This document shows positions 12,874 through 48,548 of a stretch of DNA of 48,548 nt, one piece after another (position 1 is the first letter of the stretch; every line of letters begins with the position of its first letter). Below the pieces are notes generated by a model. That model was not told the DNA's origin, searched no databases, and was given only the letters and a program-made list of their open reading frames with translations. The stretch spans positions 1 through 48,548 of IMG/VR virus record IMGVR_UViG_3300008116_006782, one strand, 5' to 3'. A program made the position numbers and the translations under genes. Source of the DNA: a virus.

Positions 12874-13206
12874 ATGAATAAAAAAGTTATATTAATAGTA
12901 CGTCATGGATGCCAAATGTGTGAAGTACTAGAGTATGAGTTAATACATAATGAAAAATTTGAAGTAATAACTTTTACAGACACACACCATCCCGATGTTT
13001 TTCAAGAATTTCTTCAACGCTTTAAAATAAATAGATTCCCTGCTATTCAAGTAGATGATGGCAAAGATTTTATTACTATACATGGAGATCCTGATTTTGT
13101 AGAACCTGTTAGTGGTGCTGGATCTAGTATGAGTAAAGCATTATTTTATTTTGAAAATACAATCAACAAACAAATAAGTCGACTTAAAGAATTACTTAAA
13201 GACTAA
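12874..13206 (+). CDS. Thioredoxin/glutaredoxin-fold protein (CQMC)
   Basis: 110 residues from ATG 12874. This is chosen over an in-frame TTG at 12844 because it opens with the first beta strand (KKVILIVRHGCQMC) and has an A/T-rich leader. The redox pair is Cys13/Cys16, and Pro56 in RFPAIQVDDG is the cis-Pro of the fold. It is the second thioredoxin-like gene in 2.6 kb and has a different active-site dipeptide. A helper of disulphide chemistry or an electron donor is likely. Confidence 0.75.
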   Translation: MNKKVILIVRHGCQMCEVLEYELIHNEKFEVITFTDTHHPDVFQEFLQRFKINRFPAIQVDDGKDFITIHGDPDFVEPVSGAGSSMSKALFYFENTINKQISRLKELLKD

Positions 13207-19999: not shown

Positions 20000-20458
20000 A
20001 TGAAAGTTGAAACATTTAGAAAATTAATAAGAGAAGAGGTAAAACGCGCACTTCGCGAGGAATTACCTGCTGTTCTTAACGAAATTAATGAAACACCCAG
20101 AGGTGTTGCTAAACCAGGTCGTGCTTTTAGTGGTTTATTTGAAGAAATGGATCAAAAAATTAAACAACCTATGGTTGAACCTACAGGTAACCCAATGCTT
20201 GACTTGTTAAACGAAACAAAAATGAGCATGGTTGCAGGTGGTGACGAATGGAAATCAATAGGTAATTTTGATTCAAACAACATTAATGTTTATCGTTCTG
20301 AAATGATGAATGCTTTTGGTGGGGCACCTGCCGTAGAATCAGTTGATCAAATGATGGCAACTGCTCGTCCCTCAGCCGATATTAACCAAGTTCAAATCAA
20401 TGCCGTTCCTGATTTTAGTAAAATGATGGGCGCTTTAAAAGAAAAAGGTAAACTATAA
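20000..20458 (+). CDS. Small virion-associated protein with capsid-targeting-like N-terminus, 152 aa
   Basis: Not recognised as a family. It begins MKVETFRKLIRE and continues as an amphipathic basic/acidic helix (VKRALREELPAVLNEI). The rest is Met/Asn-rich and low in structure (MVEPTGNPMLDLL, PDFSKMMGALKEKGKL). The I-R-E at residues 10-12 matches the T4 prohead-protease cleavage rule. It ends TAATG, overlapping the gp25-like gene by one base. It may be a baseplate or internal component. Confidence 0.5.
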   Translation: MKVETFRKLIREEVKRALREELPAVLNEINETPRGVAKPGRAFSGLFEEMDQKIKQPMVEPTGNPMLDLLNETKMSMVAGGDEWKSIGNFDSNNINVYRSEMMNAFGGAPAVESVDQMMATARPSADINQVQINAVPDFSKMMGALKEKGKL

Positions 20459-20898
20459 TGCCTTCTGTAAATTACATATTTCGTAACAATTTAGATGCTA
20501 ATAAAAGACCTAGCACTGGGGTAGGTATATCAGTCCCATTTGATGGTCCTACAGGTATTAATACAACATATACTACTCAAGAGGCTATAAAATCTAATTT
20601 ATTAAATTATTTTTTAACTGATAATAGAGAACGAGTATTTAACCCTAAGTTTGGTTCAGGTATTAGAGGTATGTTATTCGAACAAATAACAACTTCAACC
20701 ACTAGTGAACTAACACAAATGGTCACAAGCGAAATTGCTTTATATTTTCCAAACATAATAGTTGAAAATTTAAAAGTCACTCCTCTTTTTGATCAAAATT
20801 CAGTTCAAATATATTTTCGCTATTCAGTAGCATTAACTAATATAGAAGATGAAATTCAAGTAACATTCCAAAACGCCACATTAAATGCCAACGTCTAA
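20458..20898 (+). CDS. 25: gp25-like baseplate wedge protein
   Basis: 146 residues, the usual size for this family. The fold of T4 gp25 (lysozyme-like wedge subunit of contractile tails, also in type VI secretion) is indicated by the central block NLLNYFLTDNRERVFNPKFGSGIRG, read in parts: LLNYFLTDNRER and FNPKFGSGI. MFEQ-like FEQITT and the final beta strand VQIYFRYSV follow. It joins the wedge to the hub/sheath initiator. It overlaps the gp6-like gene by 14 nt, the order seen in many contractile systems. Confidence 0.88.
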   Translation: MPSVNYIFRNNLDANKRPSTGVGISVPFDGPTGINTTYTTQEAIKSNLLNYFLTDNRERVFNPKFGSGIRGMLFEQITTSTTSELTQMVTSEIALYFPNIIVENLKVTPLFDQNSVQIYFRYSVALTNIEDEIQVTFQNATLNANV

Positions 20899-35606: not shown

Positions 35607-36536
35607 ATGGTTAATTCAATACTTGTCGGACTAGTGGATAGCGTACTGGGGAAAGGTTCTCCTACTGCGAGAGGTAACTATTCCTATAAATGTCCTTTCT
35701 GCGAACACCATAAAAAGAAATTAGAAATAAACATGGTTCCAACTGCTAAGGGAGAAAATCCATGGCATTGTTGGGTATGTGATGCTAAAGGTAAAACGCT
35801 AGTTGGTTTATTTAAGAAATTAAAGATTGATAAGGAAAAAATATTTGAACTTAGATCAACGTTAGGTTTTTCTGAAAAACGAAAAGATGAAGATGAAAAA
35901 GTTAAAGTAGAATTACCTAAAGAATTTATTCCTCTATACGAAGCTAAACCTACACCTCACGCTAAACAAGCTGTTGCTTACCTTAAGAAAAGAGGAATTA
36001 AAAAAGAAGATATTATTAAATATAATATTGGGTATTGTGAATCAGGACGCTACGAAAATATGGTTATCATTCCTTCATACAATGAAAATGGTACACTAGA
36101 ATATTTTGTAGGACGTAGTTTTGAAAAAGACCCAAGACGAAAATTTGATGCTCCCACAGCAAGTAAAAACATTATTGGTTTTGAAAACTTAATTAATTGG
36201 AATGTTCCAGTTATTTTATGTGAAGGAGCGTTTGATGCTGTTACTGTTAAAAGAAATGCTATTCCGTTATTTGGTAAGATTGTTTCTAAAAAATTAATGC
36301 AAAAGATCGTTACCAATGACGTCAAAAAAGTCTATATCGCTTTAGATAAAGACGCTATAAAAGACACTCTCAAATTATCCGAGAAAATAATGAACTCGGG
36401 AAAAGAAGTTTATATAGTAGAAATGGACGATAAAGATCCTAGTGAAATGGGATTCGAACACTTTACTAATTTGGTACAAACATCAGTACCGCTTACTTTC
36501 TCATCGTTCTTTTCTCTCAAATTAAACCAAGCATGA
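35607..36536 (+). CDS. 61: DNA primase, DnaG/gp61-like
   Basis: 309 residues. An N-terminal zinc module has CPFC (Cys29/Cys32) and HCWVC (Cys55/Cys58), matching CHC2-type primase zinc ribbons. A Toprim core follows: CEGAFDA (Glu206-Gly207) and YIALDKDA with Asp247 and Asp249. This is the short phage form without a helicase-binding domain. It makes RNA primers for lagging-strand synthesis. The start lies 23 nt after the GIY-YIG gene. A possible promoter (TTG at 35573, TATATT at 35595) has a 22-nt rather than 23-nt distance. It overlaps the nuclease gene by 4 nt. Confidence 0.88.
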   Translation: MVNSILVGLVDSVLGKGSPTARGNYSYKCPFCEHHKKKLEINMVPTAKGENPWHCWVCDAKGKTLVGLFKKLKIDKEKIFELRSTLGFSEKRKDEDEKVKVELPKEFIPLYEAKPTPHAKQAVAYLKKRGIKKEDIIKYNIGYCESGRYENMVIIPSYNENGTLEYFVGRSFEKDPRRKFDAPTASKNIIGFENLINWNVPVILCEGAFDAVTVKRNAIPLFGKIVSKKLMQKIVTNDVKKVYIALDKDAIKDTLKLSEKIMNSGKEVYIVEMDDKDPSEMGFEHFTNLVQTSVPLTFSSFFSLKLNQA

Positions 36537-37315
36537 TAGAAAAAAACTCAAATATTATTCATGATCCTAAAATTAAAAGGATTGTTGAATACACAGAGGA
36601 CAACAAGCAAGTAAATGTATTAGACCAACGTTTTTACAGACGTAATGGAAAATACTACCCTTCAGTAACCTCAATCTTAAATTATTTTCCTAAAAATCAA
36701 TTTTTTCATAATTGGCTTAAAGATGTAGGTCATAACAGCGAAATTATTGCTAACAAAGCAGCTACTGAAGGTACTACAGTACACAACGCAGTAGAATGGT
36801 TTTTATTAGGTAACGAATTAAATTGGATTAATGAAGATGGAACAGCAAGATTTAGTCTTGAAGCATGGAAAATGATTCTGCGTTTTGCTGAATTTTGGAA
36901 TGAATACAAACCAGAATTAGTAACAACAGAATATCATTTATTCTCAGACGAACATTGCTATGCAGGAACAACAGACATTATCTGTCGTTTCCAAGACAAG
37001 TTATGGTTATTAGATATTAAAACATCTAATTCATTACACACATCGTATAATCTTCAGTTAGCCGCTTATGCTAAAGCATGGACAGAAACACATAACGAAA
37101 AGATTGATGAAACCGGTATTTTATGGTTAAAAGCATCCACTAGAGGCGCTTCTAAGGATAAAATCCAAGGAAATGGCTGGCAGCTCAAAAACTGTGGAGA
37201 CATTGAAAATAATTTCAAAATGTTTTTAAGTATATACGACATTTATAAACTAGAAAATCCTGATTCAAAACCTATGACGGAGTCATTACCAACAACAATC
37301 AAATTACTAGCATAA
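36533..37315 (+). CDS. PD-(D/E)XK nuclease (RecB/Cas4-like exonuclease)
   Basis: 260 residues. The core reads GTTVHNAVEWF (80-90, with His84), YAGTTDII (143-150, with catalytic Asp148), LLDIKTS (159-165, the D-x-K motif with Asp161 and Lys163), and QLAAYAKAW (175-183, motif QxxxY). This is the RecB-family nuclease layout. The phage enzyme could degrade host DNA or process ends in recombination. The 4-nt overlap with the primase points to replication. The operon ends here; a 125-nt gap with the receptor's promoter follows. Confidence 0.87.
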   Translation: MIEKNSNIIHDPKIKRIVEYTEDNKQVNVLDQRFYRRNGKYYPSVTSILNYFPKNQFFHNWLKDVGHNSEIIANKAATEGTTVHNAVEWFLLGNELNWINEDGTARFSLEAWKMILRFAEFWNEYKPELVTTEYHLFSDEHCYAGTTDIICRFQDKLWLLDIKTSNSLHTSYNLQLAAYAKAWTETHNEKIDETGILWLKASTRGASKDKIQGNGWQLKNCGDIENNFKMFLSIYDIYKLENPDSKPMTESLPTTIKLLA

Positions 37316-37439: not shown

Positions 37440-39956
37440 ATGAAAAAAACAAAACTTTTATTCGCGGCGCTATTGCTATCCGTAGCATCTTTCGCCCAAA
37501 TCAAAGGAAAAGTTGTGGATGCGTCCACAAAAGAGGTTTTAGTTGGAGCAACTGTTAACAATGTATTAACAGCACTTGATGGATCTTTTAATTTAAAAAC
37601 TGCTAAGGCAGGAGATAAAATAAAAGTATCTTTTACTGGTTTTAAAACTATGGAAGTTGAGGCAAAGGATGCCATGGTTGTTGAATTACAACCCACTTCG
37701 ATTGGCTTAGCAGAAGTTAGCGTTATTGCTTCTGTAGCTAGAGACAGGAAAACTCCTGTCGCTGCTTCAACTGTTAAAGCAAAACAGATTGAAGAAACTT
37801 ATGGTGGTTCAGCTGAATTACCTGAAGTATTAAAAGTAACCCCTGGTGTTTATGCTACTAAAACAGGAGGTGGTGTTGGTGATTCTCGTATCAACATTCG
37901 TGGTTTTGACCAACGTAACGTAGCAGTAATGATCAACGGTATTCCTGTTAATGACATGGAAAACGGTTGGGTTTACTGGTCTAACTGGGCTGGTTTAGGT
38001 GATGCTGTATCACAAATTCAAGTACAACGTGGTTTAGGTGCTTCTAAAATCGCTGTAAACTCAGTTGGTGGTACAATGAACATCATTACTAAATCAACTG
38101 ATGTAAAAGCAGGAGGTTCAGTTCAGTATCAAACTACAGACTATGGTCAACAAAAAGTTACAGTTTATGGTTCAACTGGCTTATCTAAAAAAGGATGGGC
38201 TTTCACTTCAGTATTTTCTCGTACATGGGGTGATTCTTATGTTAATGGAACTTGGATGGATGGTTATTCTTATTTCTTAAGTTTAACTAAACAATTAGGT
38301 GATAAACATAAGTTAGTATTAACTGGTATTGGTGCTCCTCAACAACATGGACAACGCAGTTCTGGTTTAACTCAAGCTCAACTTGATAAGTTTGGTCGTA
38401 AGTTTAATACTGATATTGGATATTATTCTAATGGTGATTTATTTAATGAGCGTGTTAACTACTATCACAAACCACAATTTGCTTTAAATCACTATTGGGA
38501 TATTAGCTCCAAAACACAATTAAATACCTCAGTTTATTACTCAATTGGACATGGTGGTGGATCAGGCCGTTTAGGTTCTTCTTGGTTTAGAACTGCTGAT
38601 GGTTTGATTGATATTCAAAGAGTATATGATTATAACGTAGCAAACCCTGCTATTTCTAATGGTGGTGTTAGATATGCTAATCGTAACTCAGTAAACAACC
38701 ATTATTGGGCTGGTGCTTTATCAACATTAAATCACAAATTAAATAAGAATATTGATTTAGTACTTGGTGTTGATGCTCGTTCATATAAAGGAGAACACTT
38801 CCGTGAGGCCTCCAATTTAGTAGGTGGTACTCAATATAAAGATGCTACTAATGGTTTAGTAGGTGTTCACCCATATGCTTCTGACTTTACAAACCCATTC
38901 AAAGTAGTACCTGAAAACCAACGTGTTGCTTATGACAACGATGGTTTAGTTAAATACTTAGGTGGATTTGGTCAGATTGAATATTCTAAAGATAAATTAT
39001 CAGTATTTTTAACGGGTGCTATTAACACAACTTCCAACCAAAGAATTGAGCGTTTCCTTTACAGAACTTCTACTACAAGAGGTCCTGAATCTGAAATTGT
39101 AAATATCTTAGGTGGATCTGGTAAGTTAGGTGCTAATTATAATATCGATGAAAAGCATAACGTTTATGCTAACGTAGGTTTATTTAGTCGTGCTCCTTTC
39201 TTCTCATTTGTATTTGTTAACAACACAAACGATGTTGTACAAAATTTAGTAAATGAAAAAGCACAATCATTTGAATTTGGATATGGATTTAAAGTAAAGA
39301 AAGTTGCTTTAAAATTAAACGCATATCACACTACTTGGAAGGACAAATCATTACTTTCAGGTAACTTAACAGGACCAAATGGTACTATCACTCGCGCATT
39401 AATGAGCGGTGCTAATGCTGTTCACCAAGGTTTAGAATTAGAATTTAATACTAAATTCACTAAGAAATTAGATTTAGGTGGTATTGTTTCTATTGGTGAT
39501 TGGAAATGGAAAGGTGATATTAACGCAACAGTATATTCTGAAATTGATCCAACACAACAAGTTACTGTTAAATCTTATGTTGATGGTGTACACGTAGGTG
39601 ATGCTCCTCAAAACCAATTTGGTTTACAAGGTCGCTACCAAGTAACTAAAAATCTTTGGATTGGTAGTACTTACACTCACAACAGTAAGTTTTATGCTAA
39701 CTTCGATCCAGCTTCTAAAACAACAGCTGCTAGTAAGATTGATTCTTGGAAAATGCCAAACTACGGACAATTAGATGGCCGTATTGGATATGATTTGAAA
39801 GTTAAAAAACAATCAGTATCATTAATTATTCAAGGATTTAATTTAACTAATGAATTGTTCTGGAGTGATGCTCAAGACAATGGTGCTGCTGCTATGGCTT
39901 ATGGTTTCCCAGGATTTGGTAGAAACTTTAACTTTAGCGCTAAGGTTAGATTCTAA
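37440..39956 (+). CDS. Full-length TonB-dependent outer-membrane receptor
   Basis: 838 residues, complete. Residues 1-20 are a signal peptide (MKKTKLLFAALLLSVASFA). About 21-90 form a carboxypeptidase-regulatory-like domain (IKGKVVDASTKEVLVGATV), an N-terminal extension typical of Bacteroidota receptors. About 95-220 are the plug (ELPEVLKVTPGVYATK, SRINIRGFDQRNVAVMING, VQRGLGASKIAVNSVGGTMN). 221-838 are the beta-barrel, ending FNFSAKVRF with the C-terminal Phe needed for outer-membrane insertion. Such receptors import siderophores, vitamins or glycans with TonB energy. No TonB, SusD-like or enzyme gene is nearby. Arginine is mostly CGT here, while the fibre genes favour AGA, hinting at host origin. 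It has its own promoter and terminator. Confidence 0.93.
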   Translation: MKKTKLLFAALLLSVASFAQIKGKVVDASTKEVLVGATVNNVLTALDGSFNLKTAKAGDKIKVSFTGFKTMEVEAKDAMVVELQPTSIGLAEVSVIASVARDRKTPVAASTVKAKQIEETYGGSAELPEVLKVTPGVYATKTGGGVGDSRINIRGFDQRNVAVMINGIPVNDMENGWVYWSNWAGLGDAVSQIQVQRGLGASKIAVNSVGGTMNIITKSTDVKAGGSVQYQTTDYGQQKVTVYGSTGLSKKGWAFTSVFSRTWGDSYVNGTWMDGYSYFLSLTKQLGDKHKLVLTGIGAPQQHGQRSSGLTQAQLDKFGRKFNTDIGYYSNGDLFNERVNYYHKPQFALNHYWDISSKTQLNTSVYYSIGHGGGSGRLGSSWFRTADGLIDIQRVYDYNVANPAISNGGVRYANRNSVNNHYWAGALSTLNHKLNKNIDLVLGVDARSYKGEHFREASNLVGGTQYKDATNGLVGVHPYASDFTNPFKVVPENQRVAYDNDGLVKYLGGFGQIEYSKDKLSVFLTGAINTTSNQRIERFLYRTSTTRGPESEIVNILGGSGKLGANYNIDEKHNVYANVGLFSRAPFFSFVFVNNTNDVVQNLVNEKAQSFEFGYGFKVKKVALKLNAYHTTWKDKSLLSGNLTGPNGTITRALMSGANAVHQGLELEFNTKFTKKLDLGGIVSIGDWKWKGDINATVYSEIDPTQQVTVKSYVDGVHVGDAPQNQFGLQGRYQVTKNLWIGSTYTHNSKFYANFDPASKTTAASKIDSWKMPNYGQLDGRIGYDLKVKKQSVSLIIQGFNLTNELFWSDAQDNGAAAMAYGFPGFGRNFNFSAKVRF

Positions 39957-39983: not shown

Positions 39984-40019
39984 GGCGATTCCTCTTGGGG
40001 GATCGCCAATTTTTATTTA
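39981..40019 (+). terminator. Strong intrinsic terminator after the receptor gene
   Basis: ATTGGCGATTCC (39981-39992) pairs with GGGATCGCCAAT (39999-40010) with one wobble, followed by TTTTTATTTATTTTT. It isolates the receptor from the following operon. Confidence 0.9.
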
Positions 40020-40031
40020 TTTTTATACGTC

Positions 40032-40772
40032 ATGAAATTAAAAGTATTAAAGGAAGCGCCAAAAGATTTAAAAGCAGTGTTGATTGCTGGTCCATCTAAC
40101 GTGGGTAAGTCAACATTCGTTAAATCTGTTATTCCTACCGAATACCAAAAATATGTGTTAAATCCTGATAAATTCTATGAACCCGAATTAGCCAAAATTG
40201 GTGGTGGTTCAATGAATATGAAGGACTTTTCCCCTGAGCAATTATCAGCAGCAGCAAAAGCACAAGCAGTAGCTGTAAAACAATATAGATCTGAATTAGA
40301 AAAAGCAATTGGTACAAAACCAGTTATTTTAGATATTACAGGTGGTAGCTTTAAAAAGGTAAAGGAAACAAAGGAAAAACTAGAAAAACAAGGTTATGAT
40401 GTAATGATGGTTTTATTATATGCTTCACCATATACTACTTTATCTCGCAATATGAGTAGAGACAGATCACTGGATCCAGGTATTGTAATTAGAAACTGGG
40501 AAGATGTAATTAAAAATGTTGATTTATATTCACAACTATTTGATGCTGATCATTTTGCTTTAGTAGATAATGATCCTCAAGGTGCTAATAAAAGCTTTAA
40601 CCTAGAAGATGTAGAATCATTATTTGAAAAATCTAAAATCTGGAAAGACATACCAGATGAGGATAGGAAAAAAATTGAGGCACGTATTCAAACACTTATT
40701 GACAAAACTGAAGATGCTAACTTTGTGGCATTTGATGAATTAGCAACTAAATTAAAAGGATTTCTTAAGTAA
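40032..40772 (+). CDS. Zeta-toxin/polynucleotide-kinase-like P-loop kinase with capsid-targeting-like N-terminus
   Basis: 246 residues. Walker A GPSNVGKST is at 20-28, followed by the helix and a KPVILDITGG strand (about 95-104). VMMVLLYASPYTTLSRNMSRD (around 120-140) has the arginine pair of the zeta-type lid. The C-terminal 60 residues are helical. The N-terminus MKLKVLKE, then A, has the L-x-E form of a T4 capsid-targeting peptide. Kinases of this class phosphorylate nucleotide sugars, nucleotides or polynucleotide ends. No antitoxin is nearby. It overlaps the next gene by one base. Confidence 0.75.
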   Translation: MKLKVLKEAPKDLKAVLIAGPSNVGKSTFVKSVIPTEYQKYVLNPDKFYEPELAKIGGGSMNMKDFSPEQLSAAAKAQAVAVKQYRSELEKAIGTKPVILDITGGSFKKVKETKEKLEKQGYDVMMVLLYASPYTTLSRNMSRDRSLDPGIVIRNWEDVIKNVDLYSQLFDADHFALVDNDPQGANKSFNLEDVESLFEKSKIWKDIPDEDRKKIEARIQTLIDKTEDANFVAFDELATKLKGFLK

Positions 40773-41662
40773 TGCCACAGATTTATCTTGATATGGATGG
40801 TTTATTAGTAGACTATGAAGGTGGTTTAAAAAATACTGCTAAAGAATTAGGTGTATCTGAAGATGATGGTAAAGCTATTTGGAATAAAATTAATAGTAAT
40901 CCTGAGGAATGGTGGTCTAACCTAAAACCAATTCCTGAAGGAATGAAAATATTTAACGCTGTTAAAGATAAAGAACCATCAATATTATCAGCAGCAGGAA
41001 CAAATGAACGAACAAAACAAGGTAAACTTGAATGGCTAAAAAAGAATGGTTTATCTCCTTACCTTAAAGAAATTATATTTGTTAATAACAAATCAGCAAA
41101 AAAGAAATACGCTAAGGGAGGTAATATTTTAATTGATGATCGTCCCGATAATGTGGCTGATTGGGAAATGGAAGGTGGAACATCGTATTTGTTTCAAAAT
41201 AATGCTAATCAAATTATTAAGCAGTTAGGTATGTTAAAAGAAAATTATTGGAAAAACTATTTAAATAAAAAACGTTTACAAGAAAACATTATAAAGGAAT
41301 ACACACCTGATTTCTTTCACACTATGAAAGATTTTGTTAATTTTGCATCGAATGAACTTCAATTAAAAGATGTTCCTAAAGTACATGTTATTAATTCTCC
41401 TAATTTTACTCAACAATTTAAAAGTTTTGGTGGATACCAACCAATGCAAAACAAAATTGCTATAGTAATTAAAGGAAGAGGTTTAGCTGACATATTAAGA
41501 ACATTAGCTCATGAACTTGTCCACGCACAACAGATGCAACTTAATAAACTTGACGTATCTTCGGGTGAAACTGGATCACCTGTAGAAAATGAAGCAAACG
41601 CTTTAGCAGGTGTATTAATGAGAAATTATGGACAGAAAAACCCAATGATATTTGAGTTATGA
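40772..41662 (+). CDS. HAD phosphatase fused to a putative zinc metallopeptidase
   Basis: 296 residues. The N-terminal domain (1-155) is a HAD-type phosphatase of the 5'(3')-deoxyribonucleotidase kind: LDMDGLLVDYE (Asp7, Asp9), ILSAAGT (motif II), and NILIDDRPDN (118-127, motif IV). The C-terminal domain (about 180-296) has HELVH (247-251), with a possible third ligand in ENEANALAG (Glu274), the shape of a small zincin. The joint enzyme is unusual. It lies between a kinase and a second HAD gene and overlaps both. I see no frameshift, so the fusion is genuine. Confidence 0.78.
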   Translation: MPQIYLDMDGLLVDYEGGLKNTAKELGVSEDDGKAIWNKINSNPEEWWSNLKPIPEGMKIFNAVKDKEPSILSAAGTNERTKQGKLEWLKKNGLSPYLKEIIFVNNKSAKKKYAKGGNILIDDRPDNVADWEMEGGTSYLFQNNANQIIKQLGMLKENYWKNYLNKKRLQENIIKEYTPDFFHTMKDFVNFASNELQLKDVPKVHVINSPNFTQQFKSFGGYQPMQNKIAIVIKGRGLADILRTLAHELVHAQQMQLNKLDVSSGETGSPVENEANALAGVLMRNYGQKNPMIFEL

Positions 41663-42174
41663 TAAGTTTAAAAAATATATTAGAAGTAGAAGGTATTACC
41701 CCCTATCAAATTTATTGTGATATGGATGGTGTTATAGCTGATTTTGAAGCACGTTTTGACCATTTCTTTGGAATGTCTCCAAGTGAATATGAAGCCCAAC
41801 ATGGTAAAAGAGCATTTTGGAATCAAATCGATAACAACATAGGTGTTAAATTCTGGGTTGGTATTCCTTGGATGCCAGATGGACATCAACTTTGGGATTA
41901 TATTAAAAAATATAATCCAATCTTATTATCTTCCCCTTCTACCTCAGAATCAAGCCGTTTAGGTAAACGTTTGTGGGTTAAAAAATACCTACCGGGAACT
42001 AAATTAATTTTAGCTTCTCCTGAACGTAAAGCAGAACAATCTGGTGAGGGAAAAATATTAATTGATGATAGATTTGAACCAAATATCCGCATGTGGAGAG
42101 AAAAAGGTGGAATTGGTATTCATCATACAAGTGCTGCTGACACTATTAAACAGCTTAAAGAATTAGGTTTATGA
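41659..42174 (+). CDS. HAD-family 5'-nucleotidase-like phosphatase with capsid-targeting-like N-terminus
   Basis: 171 residues. CDMDGVIADFE (20-30) gives the nucleophile pair Asp21/Asp23, ILLSSPST motif II, and KILIDDRFEPN motif IV. It is a paralogue of the N-terminal domain of the preceding protein. A 15-residue extension (MISLKNILE, then V) precedes the fold and matches the [LI]-x-E rule for T4 head targeting. It would remove phosphate from (deoxy)nucleoside monophosphates. The 4-nt overlap on both sides suggests coupled translation. Confidence 0.82.
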   Translation: MISLKNILEVEGITPYQIYCDMDGVIADFEARFDHFFGMSPSEYEAQHGKRAFWNQIDNNIGVKFWVGIPWMPDGHQLWDYIKKYNPILLSSPSTSESSRLGKRLWVKKYLPGTKLILASPERKAEQSGEGKILIDDRFEPNIRMWREKGGIGIHHTSAADTIKQLKELGL

Positions 42175-42743
42175 GTGAATCAAATTTAAAAAGAGAATTC
42201 TCTCAACGTGATGTAAAACGTATGAGAGATTTAATTACCGGAAACGTTGGTGATAGAACACAAGTTCAGGTAGGTTATGAAAAACAAACAGGCGACTATA
42301 AAGAAGGTAATGTTTGGGAAGAAAATGGTAAACAATGGACCATTAAAAATGGTATTAAACAAACTGTTACAAAGTATGATACTTTAAAACGTTTAGTTAC
42401 TTTACCCCTTTCATGCCCTAATTGTGGTCGTGCGATGAAAGATAATCGTTATAACAAAGAAATGTGGGCAATACATAAAACATGTTTTGATTGTGTAATT
42501 GAATATGAAACTAAATTACGTCAAGAAGGTAAATTTGAAGAATACCAACGTAATATATTGAATGCCAATAAAGACGCAGTATTAGACGAAACTTTAGAAG
42601 CAATTGACGCTTGGGCTAGTGTAAAAGATACATTTGTAAATGAAGCTGGTGATATTGAAAACTGGGGTGGTGGTGCTGTTGATAGAAATGAAGTAGCTAA
42701 ATTAAAAGAATATGTCCAAGAATTAAAGAGTAAAACAATTTAA
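42171..42743 (+). CDS. Conserved T4-like phage protein with four-cysteine zinc knuckle
   Basis: 190 residues. SCPNC (Cys82/Cys85) and TCFDC (Cys105/Cys108) frame a zinc-binding unit. The N-terminal part (REFSQRDVKRMRDLITGN, GYEKQTGDYKEGNVWEENG) and the C-terminal helices resemble, as far as I recall, a conserved uncharacterised protein of marine T4-like phages. The function is unknown. The gap to the next gene contains an ATATTTAT element. Confidence 0.7.
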   Translation: MSESNLKREFSQRDVKRMRDLITGNVGDRTQVQVGYEKQTGDYKEGNVWEENGKQWTIKNGIKQTVTKYDTLKRLVTLPLSCPNCGRAMKDNRYNKEMWAIHKTCFDCVIEYETKLRQEGKFEEYQRNILNANKDAVLDETLEAIDAWASVKDTFVNEAGDIENWGGGAVDRNEVAKLKEYVQELKSKTI

Positions 42744-42753
42744 CATATTTATT
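42744..42753 (+). promoter_or_regulatory. ATATTTAT element
   Basis: The 8-mer at 42745-42752 lies 7 nt before the ATG at 42760, so a -10 role would leave almost no leader. Confidence 0.35.
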
Positions 42754-42759
42754 CTCAAC

Positions 42760-43047
42760 ATGAACGATAACATTTATACAGTTTTGATGACCGCTGTCAC
42801 CGTTTTAGGTAGTGCCGCAGCATTTAGATTTTATGAAAAACGTTCAATGCGCAAAGAACGCGATGAAGAATTTATTCGTCATGATTGTAAAGATCGCATA
42901 TCCAAATTAGAAGCATTACTTGTTGAATCAGCTCGCGAAAAAGATGAGTTGCGCAAGATGGTATTAGAATTAACTAGAGAAGTAGCTTCATTACGCACTA
43001 AAGTTGAGTTTTTCGAAAGAGGTGCTAGTCCCCGTACTGGCCTTTAA
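42760..43047 (+). CDS. Membrane-anchored coiled-coil protein, 95 aa
   Basis: Residues 5-23 form a single transmembrane helix (YTVLMTAVTVLGSAAAF), followed by a basic stop-transfer segment (YEKRSMRKER) and a long charged coiled coil (KLEALLVESAREKDELRKM ...). It could be an inner-membrane spanin-like or holin-associated protein, or a membrane organiser. The lysis genes are 2 kb downstream, so the link is weak. Confidence 0.6.
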   Translation: MNDNIYTVLMTAVTVLGSAAAFRFYEKRSMRKERDEEFIRHDCKDRISKLEALLVESAREKDELRKMVLELTREVASLRTKVEFFERGASPRTGL

Positions 43048-43056
43048 TAAACATCG

Positions 43057-43066
43057 TATATTTATA
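43057..43066 (+). promoter_or_regulatory. Candidate late-promoter element (TATATTTATA)
   Basis: TATATTTATATA in the 48-nt gap before the gene at 43096, 30 nt from the ATG. No TTG is found 23 nt upstream. Confidence 0.5.
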
Positions 43067-43095
43067 TAGAGAAATACTCTAATAAATTATACATT

Positions 43096-43758
43096 ATGCC
43101 CTATACAGCCGTTGGTAAATGCGTTTACAAAAAGACCGAAGATGGTAAACGTGGTGAAAAAGTAGGATGCACAAAAGGTGCAATAAAAGACTACTTAGCC
43201 GCATTATATGCTTCAGAAAAAAATGAAGCCGTTAAAGCCGCAAAAGAAATTAAAGAAGCATTACAAGATAATGTTGACCCAACAACTTCCGCTCTTGGTA
43301 TTGACGATCAATTAGGTTCATTTTTTATTGTTCAAAAACCCTCTAAAGATTCAACTGTAGAAAATATAGTAGCAGAAGGTGATTTATTTACTGTTGCTAA
43401 TATGTTTAAGCGTGGTTTAGATTTTGATAACGTGTTTGGTTTATATAAAACAGCTGATAAAGCTCAAAGAATTGGTGAAAAACTCATCAATGAAATGAGA
43501 AAACAAATGAGAGAAAATCTTAAATTAGGTGAAAATAAAGTAACTGAACTTGAAGATGATATTAACTTAATTAAGCAAGAAATTGAACATCATATGCAAG
43601 CAGCTATGTCTGAACCTGGCACTCGTGATGCTCACTTTGCTGATGCTGAAAAATTATTAGGTGATTTAAAGAAAAAAGAAGCCGAATTAGTTAAACTAAA
43701 AGGTGCTTTAGAAAACGAAGTAAAAAAATTAGACGAAGCCGAAAAAATTAAAAAATAA
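43096..43758 (+). CDS. Hypothetical virion-like protein with coiled coil, 220 aa
   Basis: The N-terminal 45 residues contain two cysteines in CVYKKTEDGKRG and VGCTKGAIKDYLAALYA, a short module I recall from other phage proteins. A central domain (about 65-130) follows. The C-terminal third is a charged coiled coil (ELEDDINLIKQEIEHHM ... LKKKEAELVKLKGAL). The function is unknown. The stop overlaps the next start by one base. Confidence 0.6.
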   Translation: MPYTAVGKCVYKKTEDGKRGEKVGCTKGAIKDYLAALYASEKNEAVKAAKEIKEALQDNVDPTTSALGIDDQLGSFFIVQKPSKDSTVENIVAEGDLFTVANMFKRGLDFDNVFGLYKTADKAQRIGEKLINEMRKQMRENLKLGENKVTELEDDINLIKQEIEHHMQAAMSEPGTRDAHFADAEKLLGDLKKKEAELVKLKGALENEVKKLDEAEKIKK

Positions 43759-44129
43759 TGAATCCTATAGCTGCATTTTTCTCGACTTTACTTGCCTCTA
43801 GAACGCAAGCCCACATTTATCATTGGCAAACTCCATCTGATGCTGCTCACAGAGCATTAGCTACTTACTATGAACAAATAATTACAATAATTGATCCTCT
43901 TGTTGAATCAATTCAAGGTAAAAATGGTATTATCACAGGTTATTCTGCTCCTGGTCAAGTAAGAGAATATATTTCATGTGAAGAAATAATTGCTTATTTT
44001 ACTGCGTTGTCAATGTATGTTGAACAAAACAGAAATAAATTACCTCAAGACTCATATGTACAAAATCAAGTAGATATGATTTCTGAGTTAATTAATACTA
44101 CTATTTACAAGTTAAAATTCTTAAAATAA
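43758..44129 (+). CDS. Dps/ferritin-like four-helix protein
   Basis: 123 residues, all-helical. HIYHWQTPSDAAHRALATYYEQI (19-41), with His19, His22, His31 and Glu39, has the layout of Dps proteins (H-x-x-x-W then H, then E at the dimer ferroxidase site). The protein is shorter than cellular Dps (about 160) and lacks an obvious DNA-binding tail. Related small Dps-like proteins occur in marine T4-like phages. It may protect DNA or bind iron. It overlaps both neighbours by one base. Confidence 0.65.
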   Translation: MNPIAAFFSTLLASRTQAHIYHWQTPSDAAHRALATYYEQIITIIDPLVESIQGKNGIITGYSAPGQVREYISCEEIIAYFTALSMYVEQNRNKLPQDSYVQNQVDMISELINTTIYKLKFLK

Positions 44130-44905
44130 TGTCAGTAGAATTAAAAGTTCTAATCAGAGAAGCAATTGAACGTCTTCTAGAGGAAGATGTAAAATTTGCT
44201 GAGGGTGAAAAAGTAAAAACTACTGATGGTAAAGAAGGTGAAATTACTTTAGCTAAACATCCTTTTTACGCTATTAAGTTAGGTGATGGTTCTACAAAAT
44301 CATTCCATTTTTCAGATTTAATTAAGGCAACACAGGAAAAAATGGAATATGCTGGTGATTTAAATGAAATCTCAGCTGGTTTAGCTTTTCATATTAAAAA
44401 TGATTTAAGTTTATTTGAAAACGTGTTTCGTCCTGAATCAAAAGCATATTTTGATTTATTTAACGAAGCAAGAAAATTATATAGTGAAGGTTTATTAAAA
44501 TTAACCAAAGAGGAAGTTGAATTACTACATTCGGGTATTGGTGAATCAGTAATTATTGAAAATAAAGTAATACATTTAGGATTACCATTTTTAGATGATG
44601 CTGAATTTTTAACTGAGGAAGAAAAGAAAAAAGACCCACCAATTGGAAAACCAAAACGTGGTGGTTCTAAAAAATTCTACGTTTACGTTAAGAATCCTAA
44701 AACAAAGAAAATTAAAAAAGTATCATTTGGTGATACTACAGGATTACGTGCTAAATTAAATAATCCTAAAGCAAGACAAGCGTTTTCTAAACGCCACAAT
44801 TGCCCTCAAAAGAAAGATAGAACAAAAGCATCATATTGGAGCTGTCGCTTACCAAGATATGCTAAACTATTAGGTTTTAAAACATCATTTAGTGGATATT
44901 GGTAA
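44129..44905 (+). CDS. Multi-domain phage protein with capsid-targeting-like N-terminus and basic Cys-containing C-terminus
   Basis: 258 residues. The N-terminus MSVELKVLIRE, then A, fits the I-x-E head-targeting form. Residues 20-70 look like a small SH3/KOW-like barrel (FAEGEKVKTTDGKEGEITL). The middle is helical. The C-terminal ~90 residues (KKFYVYVKNPKTKKIKKVSFGD ... RHNCPQKKDRTKASYWSCR) form a compact basic domain I recall from many cyanophage and freshwater phage proteins; it is uncharacterised. The basic domain may bind DNA, which would fit an internal head protein. Function is inferred only. Confidence 0.62.
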   Translation: MSVELKVLIREAIERLLEEDVKFAEGEKVKTTDGKEGEITLAKHPFYAIKLGDGSTKSFHFSDLIKATQEKMEYAGDLNEISAGLAFHIKNDLSLFENVFRPESKAYFDLFNEARKLYSEGLLKLTKEEVELLHSGIGESVIIENKVIHLGLPFLDDAEFLTEEEKKKDPPIGKPKRGGSKKFYVYVKNPKTKKIKKVSFGDTTGLRAKLNNPKARQAFSKRHNCPQKKDRTKASYWSCRLPRYAKLLGFKTSFSGYW

Positions 44906-45161
44906 ACCATACATCGACTTAGAAGTCACAGACAAATATATTATACGAGAGTTCAATGAGGATATAGACCCCATTGAACTTCTCTGGCATCGCGATAATG
45001 AAGATCGCTTTATAGAAATAATAGGAATTACAGACTGGCAAATACAACTTGAAGACCAGCTTCCAACCTCCATGAATAAGCCCATATTTATACGCAAACA
45101 TGAATGGCACCGAACTATAAAAGGGACGGGCAAGTTGCGTATAAAAATACATAAAATTTAA
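44892..45161 (+). CDS. Small cupin-like protein, 89 aa
   Basis: Starts at GTG 44892, overlapping the preceding gene by 14 nt. Residues 10-40 (REFNEDIDPIELLWHRDNEDR) and the end (KPIFIRKHEWHRTIKGTGKLRIKI) give His33 and His71/His74-type positions, consistent with a single small beta-barrel of cupin type that could hold a metal. Similar short proteins are found in other T4-like phages as far as I recall. The function is unknown. Confidence 0.65.
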   Translation: MDIGKPYIDLEVTDKYIIREFNEDIDPIELLWHRDNEDRFIEIIGITDWQIQLEDQLPTSMNKPIFIRKHEWHRTIKGTGKLRIKIHKI

Positions 45162-45166
45162 AAATC

Positions 45167-45766
45167 ATGGATTTAAACAAACTTAAAGGGCACATCCCTG
45201 ACAACGTAATTGCGCAATTACCTGACACAATTGCTAAATTCGAATTAAATACTCCATTACGCTTAGCACATTTTTTAGCTCAAGCAGGGCATGAAAGTGG
45301 GGGATTTAAAGCAGTAAATGAAAATTTAAACTATGGTGCTAAAGGTTTATTAGGTATATTTAAAAAATATTTCCCAACTCCCGAAAAAGCAGCCTTATAC
45401 GAGCGCAAGCCAGAAAAGATTGCTAATTTAGTTTATGGTGGTCGTATGGGTAATGGTCCTGAAGCATCAGGTGACGGGTATAAATTCCGTGGACGTGGAT
45501 ATATTCAATTAACTGGTAAGGATAATTATGCCGCTTTTGATAAAGTTGTTTCTGAAAATTTACTTGAAACACCAGATTTAGTAGCTACAAAATATCCATT
45601 ATTATCAGCTGCTTGGTTTTTTCATAAAAATGGTCTTCATAAAATTGCAGATCAAGGTGCCACAGATGCTGTAGTAACATCAGTTACTAAGCGTGTTAAT
45701 GGTGGAACTATTGGTTTACCTGATCGTATTAAACATTTTAAAGAATATTATCACTTATTAGCATAA
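45167..45766 (+). CDS. Endolysin, GH19 chitinase-like lysozyme
   Basis: 199 residues, the normal size of single-domain GH19 endolysins. FLAQAGHESGGF (36-47) carries the catalytic Glu43, and YKFRGRGYIQLTGKDNY (105-121) is the family hallmark. AAWFFHKNGL and TKRVNGG follow as expected. It cleaves the glycan backbone of peptidoglycan. There is no signal peptide, so export depends on a holin, which is not clearly identified. Two small membrane proteins of spanin type follow directly. Confidence 0.93.
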   Translation: MDLNKLKGHIPDNVIAQLPDTIAKFELNTPLRLAHFLAQAGHESGGFKAVNENLNYGAKGLLGIFKKYFPTPEKAALYERKPEKIANLVYGGRMGNGPEASGDGYKFRGRGYIQLTGKDNYAAFDKVVSENLLETPDLVATKYPLLSAAWFFHKNGLHKIADQGATDAVVTSVTKRVNGGTIGLPDRIKHFKEYYHLLA

Positions 45767-45768
45767 TT

Positions 45769-46143
45769 ATGATACAAAAAATTACTAATTGGTTTAAAGT
45801 AAATAAAGCTTTTTTTAAATATGCACTATATGGGGTAATAGGATTATTTGCTCTATATGGTTTTATTTTTATTGTATCTCTTAAACCAAACATGCCTGCT
45901 GAAATTAAAGCAACAATTGATTCTTTAAATGTTGTTAACAAACAACTTGTTGAACGTCAAAAACAAATTGATAGTACAATTGCTGTTTACGAAGATGAAG
46001 TTGACCAGATTGATAATCAAGTAGATAACATTAAAGAAAAAACAACTATAATTCGTGAATACTATCATGAAGTAGGTCAAAAAGCTGAGCAATACACCCC
46101 AACACAAGTTGATTCATTTTTTAAAGCTAGATACGGATACTAA
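45769..46143 (+). CDS. Putative inner-membrane spanin (Rz-like)
   Basis: 124 residues. A transmembrane helix (FFKYALYGVIGLFALYGFIFIV, about 15-36) is followed by a periplasmic coiled coil (VVNKQLVERQKQIDSTIAV ... DNIKEKTTIIREYY). This is the layout of i-spanins. It starts 2 nt after the endolysin and its stop overlaps the next gene by one base. A holin role is less likely because of the long soluble coiled coil. Confidence 0.68.
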   Translation: MIQKITNWFKVNKAFFKYALYGVIGLFALYGFIFIVSLKPNMPAEIKATIDSLNVVNKQLVERQKQIDSTIAVYEDEVDQIDNQVDNIKEKTTIIREYYHEVGQKAEQYTPTQVDSFFKARYGY

Positions 46144-46538
46144 TGAAATACATTTTAATTATATTGATGTTATTACCCATATTTGGTAATGCTCAAACAC
46201 AAGATACAGTACATATTCCTTCTCATGTTGCTAAATTAATTGTTAAAGATTTAGTTAGTGGTGATAGTGCTAAGGCAGAATTAAAATTAGCCAATGAACA
46301 TATAGATTTAATGCATCAAAAAGTTAATCTAAAGGATAGCATCATCTCAGGACACGTTCAAAAGGGCATAATGTATGAAGATCGCATCAAGAATGAACAA
46401 TTAAAATTTGATACTCAACAAAAATGGGTAGATCAATTACGCAAGGATAATAAAAAACTTAAAGTTAAACTTAGATTTTTACAAATTACAGGCACAGCTA
46501 TTGTGGGAGGATTGGCATATTTATATATAACTAAATGA
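46143..46538 (+). CDS. Putative lysis-associated envelope protein, 131 aa
   Basis: The N-terminus MKYILIILMLLPIFGNAQ is a cleavable signal peptide. The middle is a coiled coil (AELKLANEHIDLMHQKVNL ... QQKWVDQLRKDNKKLK), and residues ~112-129 (FLQITGTAIVGGLAYLYI) form a C-terminal transmembrane helix. There is no lipobox cysteine, so it is not a classic outer-membrane lipoprotein spanin. It may be a partner of the preceding protein or a unimolecular spanin. The one-base overlap with that gene supports a joint role in disrupting the outer membrane. Confidence 0.62.
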   Translation: MKYILIILMLLPIFGNAQTQDTVHIPSHVAKLIVKDLVSGDSAKAELKLANEHIDLMHQKVNLKDSIISGHVQKGIMYEDRIKNEQLKFDTQQKWVDQLRKDNKKLKVKLRFLQITGTAIVGGLAYLYITK

Positions 46539-46927
46539 TAAAATTAGCCGACATATTATGTGAAATCCTTAATGAGGATAGATGTCAACGAATAGCCAAT
46601 AGACGCTATGACAAGCCCTCAGCATATAAGTCAGGAGCAATTGTTCGTTGCCGTAAAGGTAATATTTGGAAAGGTATTAAATCTGAAGTAGCTTTACAAG
46701 AAAAAGAAACTTTACATAAATGGTTTGCAAGACAAGGTGGAACGGGAAGTTCAGGTGGTTGGGTTGATTGTAATACATGTCGCACGGACCCAAAAACAGG
46801 TAGAAAAAAATGTAAATCATGTGGACGTCAAAAAGGTGAAAAGCGTGCTAAATATCCTTCATGTCGCCCCACTCCTTCACAATGTAAAAGCCCAGGCAAA
46901 GGTAAATCTTGGGGTAAAACGAAATGA
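46535..46927 (+). CDS. Cys-rich basic protein with capsid-targeting-like N-terminus, 130 aa
   Basis: The N-terminus MIKLADILCE, then I, has the L-x-E form. The C-terminal half is very basic and holds VDCNTCRTD, KKCKSCGRQKGEKR and YPSCRPTPSQC, a zinc-finger-like domain seen, as far as I recall, in other large phages. The C-terminus KGKSWGKTK is positively charged. A DNA-binding protein packed with the genome is plausible. The function is unproven. It overlaps both neighbours by 4 nt. Confidence 0.65.
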   Translation: MIKLADILCEILNEDRCQRIANRRYDKPSAYKSGAIVRCRKGNIWKGIKSEVALQEKETLHKWFARQGGTGSSGGWVDCNTCRTDPKTGRKKCKSCGRQKGEKRAKYPSCRPTPSQCKSPGKGKSWGKTK

Positions 46928-47490
46928 TGAAATTAAAAGACATATTACTTGAGGTTGAAGCAGATCAAAAAGTTGATGCTGTAGTAGACGATTTAAAGGA
47001 TGATTTTGCTTCAGCTCTTGATGGTATTGAAGATGCCTTAGAGGATGCTGAATATCAACAAAAAGAAGGTGTATTAACTACAGCTAGCTTATTACTTGCT
47101 CTTCCTGCTGTTTTAGGTATAATTGCTCGTTTGGGTAAAGCTGCTACTTCTGCTTTTCAGAAAATAGCTGGTAAAAAACCAAATGATCAAAGCGGAACAG
47201 AAAAATATTTCCAACAATTAGGAAGAGTAGCAGATGAATTACATCATTTGTATATGAAACCTCTTGAATTATTAACAAGAAAGTTTATTAAAGACCCTGT
47301 AAAAGCTAAAAAAGTAGCAAATGCTATTTTTCATATAATTGTAGCTACCATGATGGTTGCCTCAGGAGTTACTGCTGCAAAAGCACTTCAAGCAAAAGAA
47401 ATATCATTAGCTTCATTAGAATCAGCTTTAACCGCTGTTAAGGGTGGTGAAATAAAAAATTATTTAACAAATCTCTATAACGCTATATAA
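46924..47490 (+). CDS. Membrane-active protein with capsid-targeting-like N-terminus, 188 aa
   Basis: Begins MMKLKDILLE, then V (the second ATG at 46927 is equally possible), matching the L-x-E rule. Residues 15-50 are acidic helix (DDLKDDFASALDGIEDAL). Two hydrophobic helices follow: LTTASLLLALPAVLGIIARLG (about 53-73) and ANAIFHIIVATMMVASGVTA (about 138-157). A packed protein with membrane helices could act on the host membrane during injection. No family recognised; inference only. Confidence 0.6.
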   Translation: MMKLKDILLEVEADQKVDAVVDDLKDDFASALDGIEDALEDAEYQQKEGVLTTASLLLALPAVLGIIARLGKAATSAFQKIAGKKPNDQSGTEKYFQQLGRVADELHHLYMKPLELLTRKFIKDPVKAKKVANAIFHIIVATMMVASGVTAAKALQAKEISLASLESALTAVKGGEIKNYLTNLYNAI

Positions 47491-47829
47491 ATGAAACTTA
47501 GAATTAAATCAATTAAAGAAGATAAAGTTGAAAAAGTAGATATTTTATCTGCTAAATTATTCAAATTAAAGGATAAAGTGCAACCTGCTTTTTACGACAA
47601 AGTTCGTTCACTTATTAATAGTGGTGATTTAGCTAAGGCTGAAGAATTTTTAAATCGTATTACTAAAGAAGCATTAGACCCAGTAGGTAAAGAAGATAGT
47701 GATATTGATAATGATGGGGATGTAGATAAGTCAGATAAGTATTTACAAGCAAAACGTGATGCTATATCTAAAAATATAAAAGAAGATCATGAAGTAAGTA
47801 TGGCTCATAATTTACTTGATAGGTGGTGA
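47491..47829 (+). CDS. Small protein with EF-hand-like loop and capsid-targeting-like N-terminus, 112 aa
   Basis: Begins [10 protein letters not shown], then D (I-K-E at 8-10). A calcium-binding-type loop [15 protein letters not shown] lies at about 70-85. The end ([14 protein letters not shown]) stops abruptly where the next frame continues with a sequence that would complete a known phage domain. This suggests the gene was once joined to the following one by a frameshift or deletion near 47816-47829. Confidence 0.55.
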
Positions 47830-48214
47830 AGAAAGAGATATTCCTGGATGGATTCAAGATCATATTTCACAAGCTCAAAATTATATAAATCAAGCAAATA
47901 CTAATTATCATGAAGATAAGGACGAAGCAGAAGATGAAGCTATGCTTGAAGCCGAAATGAATGATATATCACCAGAAGAAGCAGAGAAAGAATTTGATAA
48001 ATTAATGCAACGTTACGATTGGTATGCTGAAATGAGTGATGATTACAGAGCATACGACAGAATGACATCTGTAAATCGTAGATTATTATCATTAGCTCAA
48101 AAATTTGATGCTAATAAAGCTGTAGATATTTTTAACCAATATGCCCCTAAAGGATCAGGTGTTCAAAAATATTTAGATAGAACTATTGATTCATTAGACC
48201 AATTAAGATCATAA
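47816..48214 (+). CDS. Helical protein, possibly the detached 3' part of the preceding gene, 132 aa
   Basis: The only available start is TTG 47816, 14 nt inside the preceding gene, in the +1 frame. The N-terminus [17 protein letters not shown], then [12 protein letters not shown], resembles the C-terminal domain of longer phage virion proteins that, as I recall, contain DHEVSMAxxxL just before it. This is the very sequence that ends the 112-residue protein. The rest is acidic helix. Translation may be by reinitiation or ribosomal shift, or the gene may be decayed. Confidence 0.5.
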
Positions 48215-48548
48215 TGAGATTTAAATTATCAAAAGAAAGTGTTAAGCAACTAAGAGGAATAGTTAGTAACGAAGCAAGCGAGTTTGTTCAAGAACAAGCT
48301 GAGGAAGTTATTTCGTTTGAATCTAATCCTATGGAGTATATTTTAAACAAATATCCTTCATTAACGGATACTTTAGATGATTTACTTACTAATTATTTTC
48401 GTGATTACGTTACAGGTATATTTGTTATAGCTCCCAAACCAACTACATTTAAAGTTTTACTACATAATGGACAAATGTTTTTCTTAACATATGGTCCTAA
48501 ATCTTGGATTGCTAAAGTAGCGGGTAAAAGATATTATTTACTTAATTT
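48214..48548 (+). CDS. Partial hypothetical protein, cut by the window end
   Basis: An open frame starts at ATG 48214 (one base overlapping the previous stop, TAATG) and runs to the window edge without a stop, at least 111 residues. It begins [17 protein letters not shown] and has an acidic helical stretch (NEASEFVQEQAEEVISF). A beta segment follows (VIAPKPTTFKVLLHNGQMF, FLTYGPKSWIAKVAGKRYY). Not recognised. Confidence 0.6.
   Translation, partial: MRFKLSKESVKQLRGIVSNEASEFVQEQAEEVISFESNPMEYILNKYPSLTDTLDDLLTNYFRDYVTGIFVIAPKPTTFKVLLHNGQMFFLTYGPKSWIAKVAGKRYYLLN

Follow-up and report, generated by a model that had tools for sequence, protein, structure and literature searches.

Why should a phage place the same kind of short peptide at the start of proteins whose bodies are unrelated? 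The question is raised by a cluster of genes at the right of a stretch of virus DNA, here called the window, which is the whole of the complete IMG/VR virus record IMGVR_UViG_3300008116_006782 (48,548 bases, classed as linear and probably a fragment). A sequence-only reading of the window had noticed six proteins that begin with a short peptide ending in [L/I]-x-E, like the capsid-targeting sequence (CTS) of phage T4 internal head proteins, and had suggested a modular set of effectors that are packed in the head and injected with the DNA. From comparisons with related phages, we consider it quite probable that these peptides, called tags below, serve as propeptides that direct proteins to the head in the manner of the T4 CTS, and that they do so on a larger scale in the group referred to here as Far-T4 (Immutovirus-like) phages.

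The six open reading frames (ORFs) were confirmed throughout, each with an ATG start and with the coordinates and first residues that had been reported. As expected of a T4-type CTS, the tags are short N-terminal peptides, of 8-11 residues, and 6/6 end in [LI]xE. Genes and proteins of the window are named below by their first position.

40032..40772, plus strand: P-loop kinase-like protein; tag MKLKVLKE at 40032-40055
41659..42174, plus strand: 5'-3' deoxyribonucleotidase-like protein; tag MISLKNILE at 41659-41685
44129..44905, plus strand: basic protein, 258 aa; tag MSVELKVLIRE at 44129-44161
46535..46927, plus strand: DUF5872 protein; tag MIKLADILCE at 46535-46564
46924..47490, plus strand: all-helical (modelled) protein, 188 aa, of a start-swapping family; tag MMKLKDILLE at 46924-46953
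47491..47829, plus strand: protein with an EF-hand/dockerin-like stretch, 112 aa; tag of 10 residues at 47491-47520

The baseplate protein encoded at 20885 is 47.7% identical to its counterparts in Flavobacterium phage immuto and Microcystis phage Mel-JY01. The records nearest to the immuto capsid protein are Mel-JY01 (54% identity), an uncultured 484-kb phage (51%) and Rhodothermus phage RM378 (37.7%), which we take to be labelled Far-T4; T4-like phages of enterobacteria are at about 28% and lower. Neither a near-identity DNA search with positions 40,000-48,548 nor a tblastn search with the 46924 protein gave a match among phage records. Gene order in the relatives is primase, exonuclease, tag cluster, then gp17, gp20, gp21, the gp22 position and gp23, the tag cluster running into a head module with a gp21-type protease.

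Exchangeable tags on unrelated bodies

The tags are modular, in that one body is found with several tags and one tag on unrelated bodies. Among 1896 non-redundant proteins of the relatives, the tag classes are MIKLxDILxE (IKL), MKIRIKE (KIRIKE), FDLRKFLTE (FDL), KSELRQLIREE (SELR), LxxLIREVL (LIRE) and RMQKLAGIITE (LAGI), and N-termini hold their motifs, in patterns drawn up after the data were seen, at 38-266 times the internal density. Counts of the body clusters that carry each class (IKL 34, LIRE 20, LAGI 17, SELR 13, FDL 7, KIRIKE 3) are low bounds, single-linkage clustering having chained 412 proteins into one group, and some SELR proteins are counted under LIRE too. As with a T4-type CTS, a module is common to unrelated bodies within a single genome: six SELR-tagged genes lie inside 7 kb of one relative (L127), and the 484-kb phage has a related tag on five consecutive genes. 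Exchange in the other direction is seen in the 46924 family, where column identity in the alignment averages 62%, yet the start is IKL, KIRIKE, FDL or LAGI. Two members (L107 and L113) are near-identical to a third (L095) from EVDINLDDKEQ on and different before it.

The isolate immuto gives a similar picture. Pairs of its N-termini without body homology score >=40 in 19/23858 cases, against 1/15564 at residues 41-64; when the score is lowered to 33, signal peptides and tail-fibre starts enter the list too. The tag Glu is predicted in gp083 (MKKQILSEQFRRMQKLAGIITE), gp076 (MENFDLKKFLVE), gp077 (MADNFNLRSFLTE), gp080 (MKKSQLRQIIKE) and gp087 (MKKVMGNLADLLLE).

Homologues were also counted by family, with the Glu of [LI]xE allowed at residues 6-16. 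Tagged homologues make up 24/28 of the kinase family, 23/29 of the nucleotidase family and 15/15 of the 46535 family, and 41/61, 12/26 and 3/5 of the 44129, 46924 and 47491 families. Neighbours in the cluster are mostly tagless (42171, 0/48; 42760, 0/7; Dps-like, 1/15; 44892, 6/51; lysozyme-like, 1/6), as are the primase (4/35), gp20 (3/41), 30016 (0/6), gp6 (0/1) and gp25 (0/3) families. The 40772 family has an [LI]xE start in 28/37, and its matches include the tagged paralogous family of nucleotidases.

The sequence-only reading had also held that the bodies of the six proteins differ completely. Two of them are firmly identified, the deoxyribonucleotidase at 41659 (phrog_2643, E 9.9e-26) and the DUF5872 protein at 46535 (Pfam, E 6.4e-7; predicted pI 10.0). 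The 44129 protein is basic (predicted pI 9.4) and matches phrog_7595 in its C-terminal part. Two labels are weak: the kinase assignment of 40032, with weak matches to AAA_33/zeta-toxin and phrog_2071/12810, and the EF-hand/dockerin assignment of 47491 are both under curated cut-offs. The predicted model of the 46924 protein is all-helical and found no PDB fold at E <= 0.001; neither did the model of 44129, for which MscS channels were best (E 0.0032) and KOW/Tudor-like barrels lower. A defence-protein library compared with seven proteins gave weak matches only, all to the kinase-like protein.

The scaffold-position tail, the protease and a candidate capsid site

A tie to prohead assembly, better than resemblance to T4 alone, comes from the LAGI class. 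The peptide RMQKLAGI, an N-terminal tag on some proteins, is elsewhere the extreme C-terminus of the protein encoded directly upstream of gp23. In 16/16 head modules (L155-L157 being near-identical), the protein between the protease and capsid genes has a C-terminal tail with LAG or LAN, and [ILVM]xE stands just ahead of the tail in 15/16. IMG/VR was scanned for RMQKLAGI-coding DNA, a search independent of body homology, with at least 120 matches at no fewer than 119 loci. Among the 120 matches listed, 93 are C-terminal, 25 N-terminal and 2 elsewhere (118/120 terminal), and a gp23 homologue follows directly after 88/93 of the C-terminal ones listed. The distribution is that of a scaffold-tail mimic, the peptide being found at the termini of putative cargo as well as at the C-terminus in the scaffold position, and hardly ever inside a protein. 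N-terminal LAGI peptides have [LIV]xE after them in 22/24 cases and before them in 18/24, against 11.8% of background windows, these 24 tags resembling one another and not being 24 independent events. The tail is an old one, the gp22-position protein ending in IKRLAGL in RM378 and in RMKKLAGIVK in Mel-JY01.

Ten LAGI-tagged proteins gave no Pfam match above cut-off and no PHROG match at E 0.001, and in the subset of genes inspected no LAGI-tagged cargo was seen in Mel-JY01, RM378 or the Kyanoviridae HTVC008M and Melnitz. In a near relative of the window (L082), the gene at 12977 bears a LAGI tag; its place is one gene further on than the gene where the window stops, and the window phage may also use this class. 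Two large proteins, of 805 and 926 aa (L009:12208-14625 and L011:8536-11316), have a LAGI peptide at each end.

An S77 protease of the gp21 type (Pfam PF03420) was found in 15/19 of the relatives' records, all 15 above cut-off; the same search gave 0 matches in the window record and likewise 0 in control genomes. No capsid or scaffold gene was seen among the window ORFs. The sequence-only reading had asked whether capsid cleavage sites follow the rule of the tags, and in the relatives the candidate sites have a similar form. T4 gp23 is, we assume, cleaved at Glu65; in that column 16/16 of the relatives' capsid proteins have VxE, with the Glu aligned with Glu65, and RM378 has LME and Mel-JY01 ISE. 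In immuto the predicted capsid site reads VSE. At the N-terminus, too, each of the 16 capsid proteins has a peptide that closes with LxE at residue 8 or 9.

A proposed packing role weighed against its alternatives

We propose that the short N-terminal helix of a tagged protein would bind a partner in the assembling prohead, and that a gp21-type (S77) protease would cut after [L/I/V]-x-E, so that the body is freed inside the head and could enter the host with the injected DNA. Tag modules can be exchanged for one another on one body. Because RMQKLAGI is the tail of the gp22-position scaffold, cargo of the LAGI class probably takes the scaffold's own docking site and would be released by the same cut; its likeliest receptor is the capsid protein, as a first guess by analogy with herpesvirus and P22 scaffolds. 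The IKL, KIRIKE-like and LIRE tags of the window would act like LAGI, since they are exchanged with it on the same body. More tentatively, and with somewhat more doubt than belief, one might see here a packing code of exchangeable N-terminal peptides, each with a docking site in the prohead and one copied from the C-terminal tail of the scaffold, by which many mostly uncharacterised proteins would be loaded, trimmed by the protease and delivered with the genome.

Might such starts arise by chance? AT-rich genes begin with Lys, Leu and Ile codons, and [LI]xE is common in the first dozen residues. A motif search over the genome with a statistical null had been proposed as a check, and within the window its outcome is weak. 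The search covered 56 genes, hand-picked out of 83 ORFs with antisense and nested ORFs removed. The motif by itself ([LI]xE, its Glu at residues 7-12) occurs in 6/16 genes right of 40,000 and in 6/40 left of it (Fisher p = 0.07), and in 169/2192 internal windows of the cluster proteins. A neutral definition (Glu at 7-16, no Pro or Gly preceding, >=3 of LIVMF) fits 6/16 cluster genes against 4/40 other window genes (p = 0.024), and 0/39 internal-Met pseudo-starts of cluster proteins. In the relatives, however, the neutral definition fits 396 of the 1896 true starts (20.9%) but 327/7049 internal-Met pseudo-starts (4.6%), and in immuto it fits 10/25 cluster-region genes against 16/191 elsewhere (p = 1.1e-4). 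Unrelated bodies with common tags, and the terminal place of LAGI in 118/120 of the matches listed, likewise speak against chance, which is very improbable for the group, even if it could account for a tag or two among the six of the window (those of 40032 or 47491, say). Still less credence is due to the view that the common starts work at the DNA level, as modules of recombination or expression (for gene shuffling or translation), and not as peptide signals: the six SELR genes of L127 do use the same codon at 102/136 identical residue pairs, but 34/136 pairs differ in codon, the upstream 25 nt agree at 42% only, and the LAGI class is also found as a C-terminus.

A more substantial alternative, which we nonetheless think unlikely, is that the tags are docking peptides for phage assembly (in the prohead core or, for example, the tail) that are retained on the protein, the [LI]xE being a by-product of acidic amphipathic helices. 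One might then expect what is seen in the SELR and LIRE tags, which are long helices extending beyond the Glu; seemingly tagless enzymes such as gp17 have similar starts as well, and a tag-like start occurs in the baseplate region at 20000. Retention does not sit well, however, with swap boundaries that lie near xE sites, with the [LIV]xE after 22/24 LAGI tags, or with the presence of a protease and of capsid sites that share this form.

Several further points weigh against cleaved head-targeting propeptides, the reading we prefer. Its evidence consists of sequences and models, from which packaging, cleavage and injection are inferred, and the window-only p values are suggestive and not decisive. 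An [LI]xE start is also present in the exonuclease (15/31), gp17 (15/40), 43096 (8/16) and 35146 (7/27) families, and because the first three of these have it, the motif alone does not mark cargo. The capsid site of the relatives is VxE and not the strict [LI]xE of T4. The scaffold is named by its position only, and two such proteins that were tried gave 0 PHROG matches; one scaffold tail (L150) has no preceding [ILVM]xE. No LAGI tag was seen among the window ORFs, whose tags belong to other classes. The scaffold N-terminus is not claimed as a source of the SELR and LIRE tags, its N-terminal excess being weak: a profile of 14 scaffold N-termini at score 10 matched 21/22608 N-terminal windows vs 28/360776, and the 44129 tag scored 0.6. 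The T4-like modular set first proposed is supported in part and indirectly, by its modularity, the [LI]xE ends, the protease of the relatives, their VxE capsid site and the scaffold-position tail; the case within the window itself is modest.

Neighbouring genes and comparison with known systems

The tagged genes are interspersed with tagless ones, and in the relatives the cluster is bounded on the left by primase and exonuclease genes.

35607..37315, plus strand: primase and exonuclease genes, the left cluster edge in the relatives by synteny
40772..46538, plus strand: interspersed tagless cluster genes 40772, 42171, 42760, 43096, 43758, 44892, 45167, 45769 and 46143

The primase matches Pfam DNAG_N just above cut-off, and the exonuclease matches PDDEXK_1 under cut-off. 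Between the exonuclease and kinase genes lies a TonB-dependent receptor gene (37440-39956; 838 aa; Plug domain, E 4.4e-15), which is absent from every relative locus compared; in a near relative (L003) the exonuclease and kinase genes are about 75 nt apart. The gene may be a phage-borne receptor or an assembly chimera. Inside the cluster, 43758-44129 encodes a tagless DUF5856 / starvation-inducible (Dps-like) protein whose location is conserved in the relatives.

At the right of the cluster, the overlapping ORFs 47491-47829 and 47816-48214 (TTG start) correspond to a single ORF of 296-311 aa in three relatives (L081, L082 and L002). The 47491 ORF probably encodes just the beginning of a longer protein, the split being a frame change that is either real or a sequencing error. 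Its EF-hand/dockerin-like stretch has matches in five PHROG families of different function, including a cytidyltransferase, and in one relative (L014) the stretch comes after a LAGI tag; it may be a second shuffled module. Away from the cluster, a 152-aa protein beside the baseplate genes (20000-20458) has a LIRE-like start, MKVETFRKLIREEVKRALREE, and its immuto counterpart has a tag-like start at 81525. The record opens, at its left end, with nine minus-strand tRNA genes (47-921).

In the open PMC literature no description of these tags was recognised and no virion proteome of the group was found. Within the literature searched, it is new that tag classes are so numerous and are exchanged, and that one of them is identical to a scaffold-position tail. 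If the propeptide reading is true, it would supply a sequence rule for finding head-packaged, probably injected proteins in little-studied environmental phages, and cargo could be recruited by copying a docking peptide of the scaffold. Many tagged bodies match no family. The reading can be tested in the isolate immuto.

The closest known system is that of the T4 internal proteins, whose CTS is cut by gp21. According to the part of the account drawn on here, cutting in T4 is after L/I-x-E, the propeptides have 10-19 residues, and the CTS may let T4-like phages load varied proteins (PMC9026906). The Far-T4 tags are likewise short [LI]xE peptides on unrelated proteins, and the relatives have a gp21-type S77 protease; in T4, short peptides with an xE end also open gp22, gp24, gp21 and gp67. 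In contrast to T4, Far-T4 phages exchange a larger number of tag classes on the same bodies and tag far more genes, and one of the classes is identical to a scaffold-position C-terminus. Compared by eye with IPI, the sole T4 protein used, the Far-T4 tags are not alike letter for letter. In the giant phage SPN3US (gp245), N-terminal propeptides of head proteins are similarly removed by a prohead protease, some of them 20-24 residues long, but the cleavage motif is another one, the propeptides are mostly long, and the excerpt used here describes no exchanged set of short tags (PMC10052503).

Scaffolds provide the other comparison. The C-terminus of the herpesvirus scaffold binds the capsid protein and is cut there, at the M site, as summarized in the portion of the source relied on (PMC12474303). 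The likeness drawn, a C-terminal tail with a protease site just ahead of it, is one of function, and in Far-T4, unlike herpesvirus, other proteins carry the scaffold tail, mostly N-terminally. In the extract consulted, a C-terminal helix-turn-helix is essential in the P22 scaffold, which has also served to load cargo fused to it (PMC9962691). Cargo there too enters proheads by means of a C-terminal segment of the scaffold; in P22 this is engineered, with residues 141-303 or 238-303, whereas the Far-T4 peptide is natural and about 10-20 residues long.

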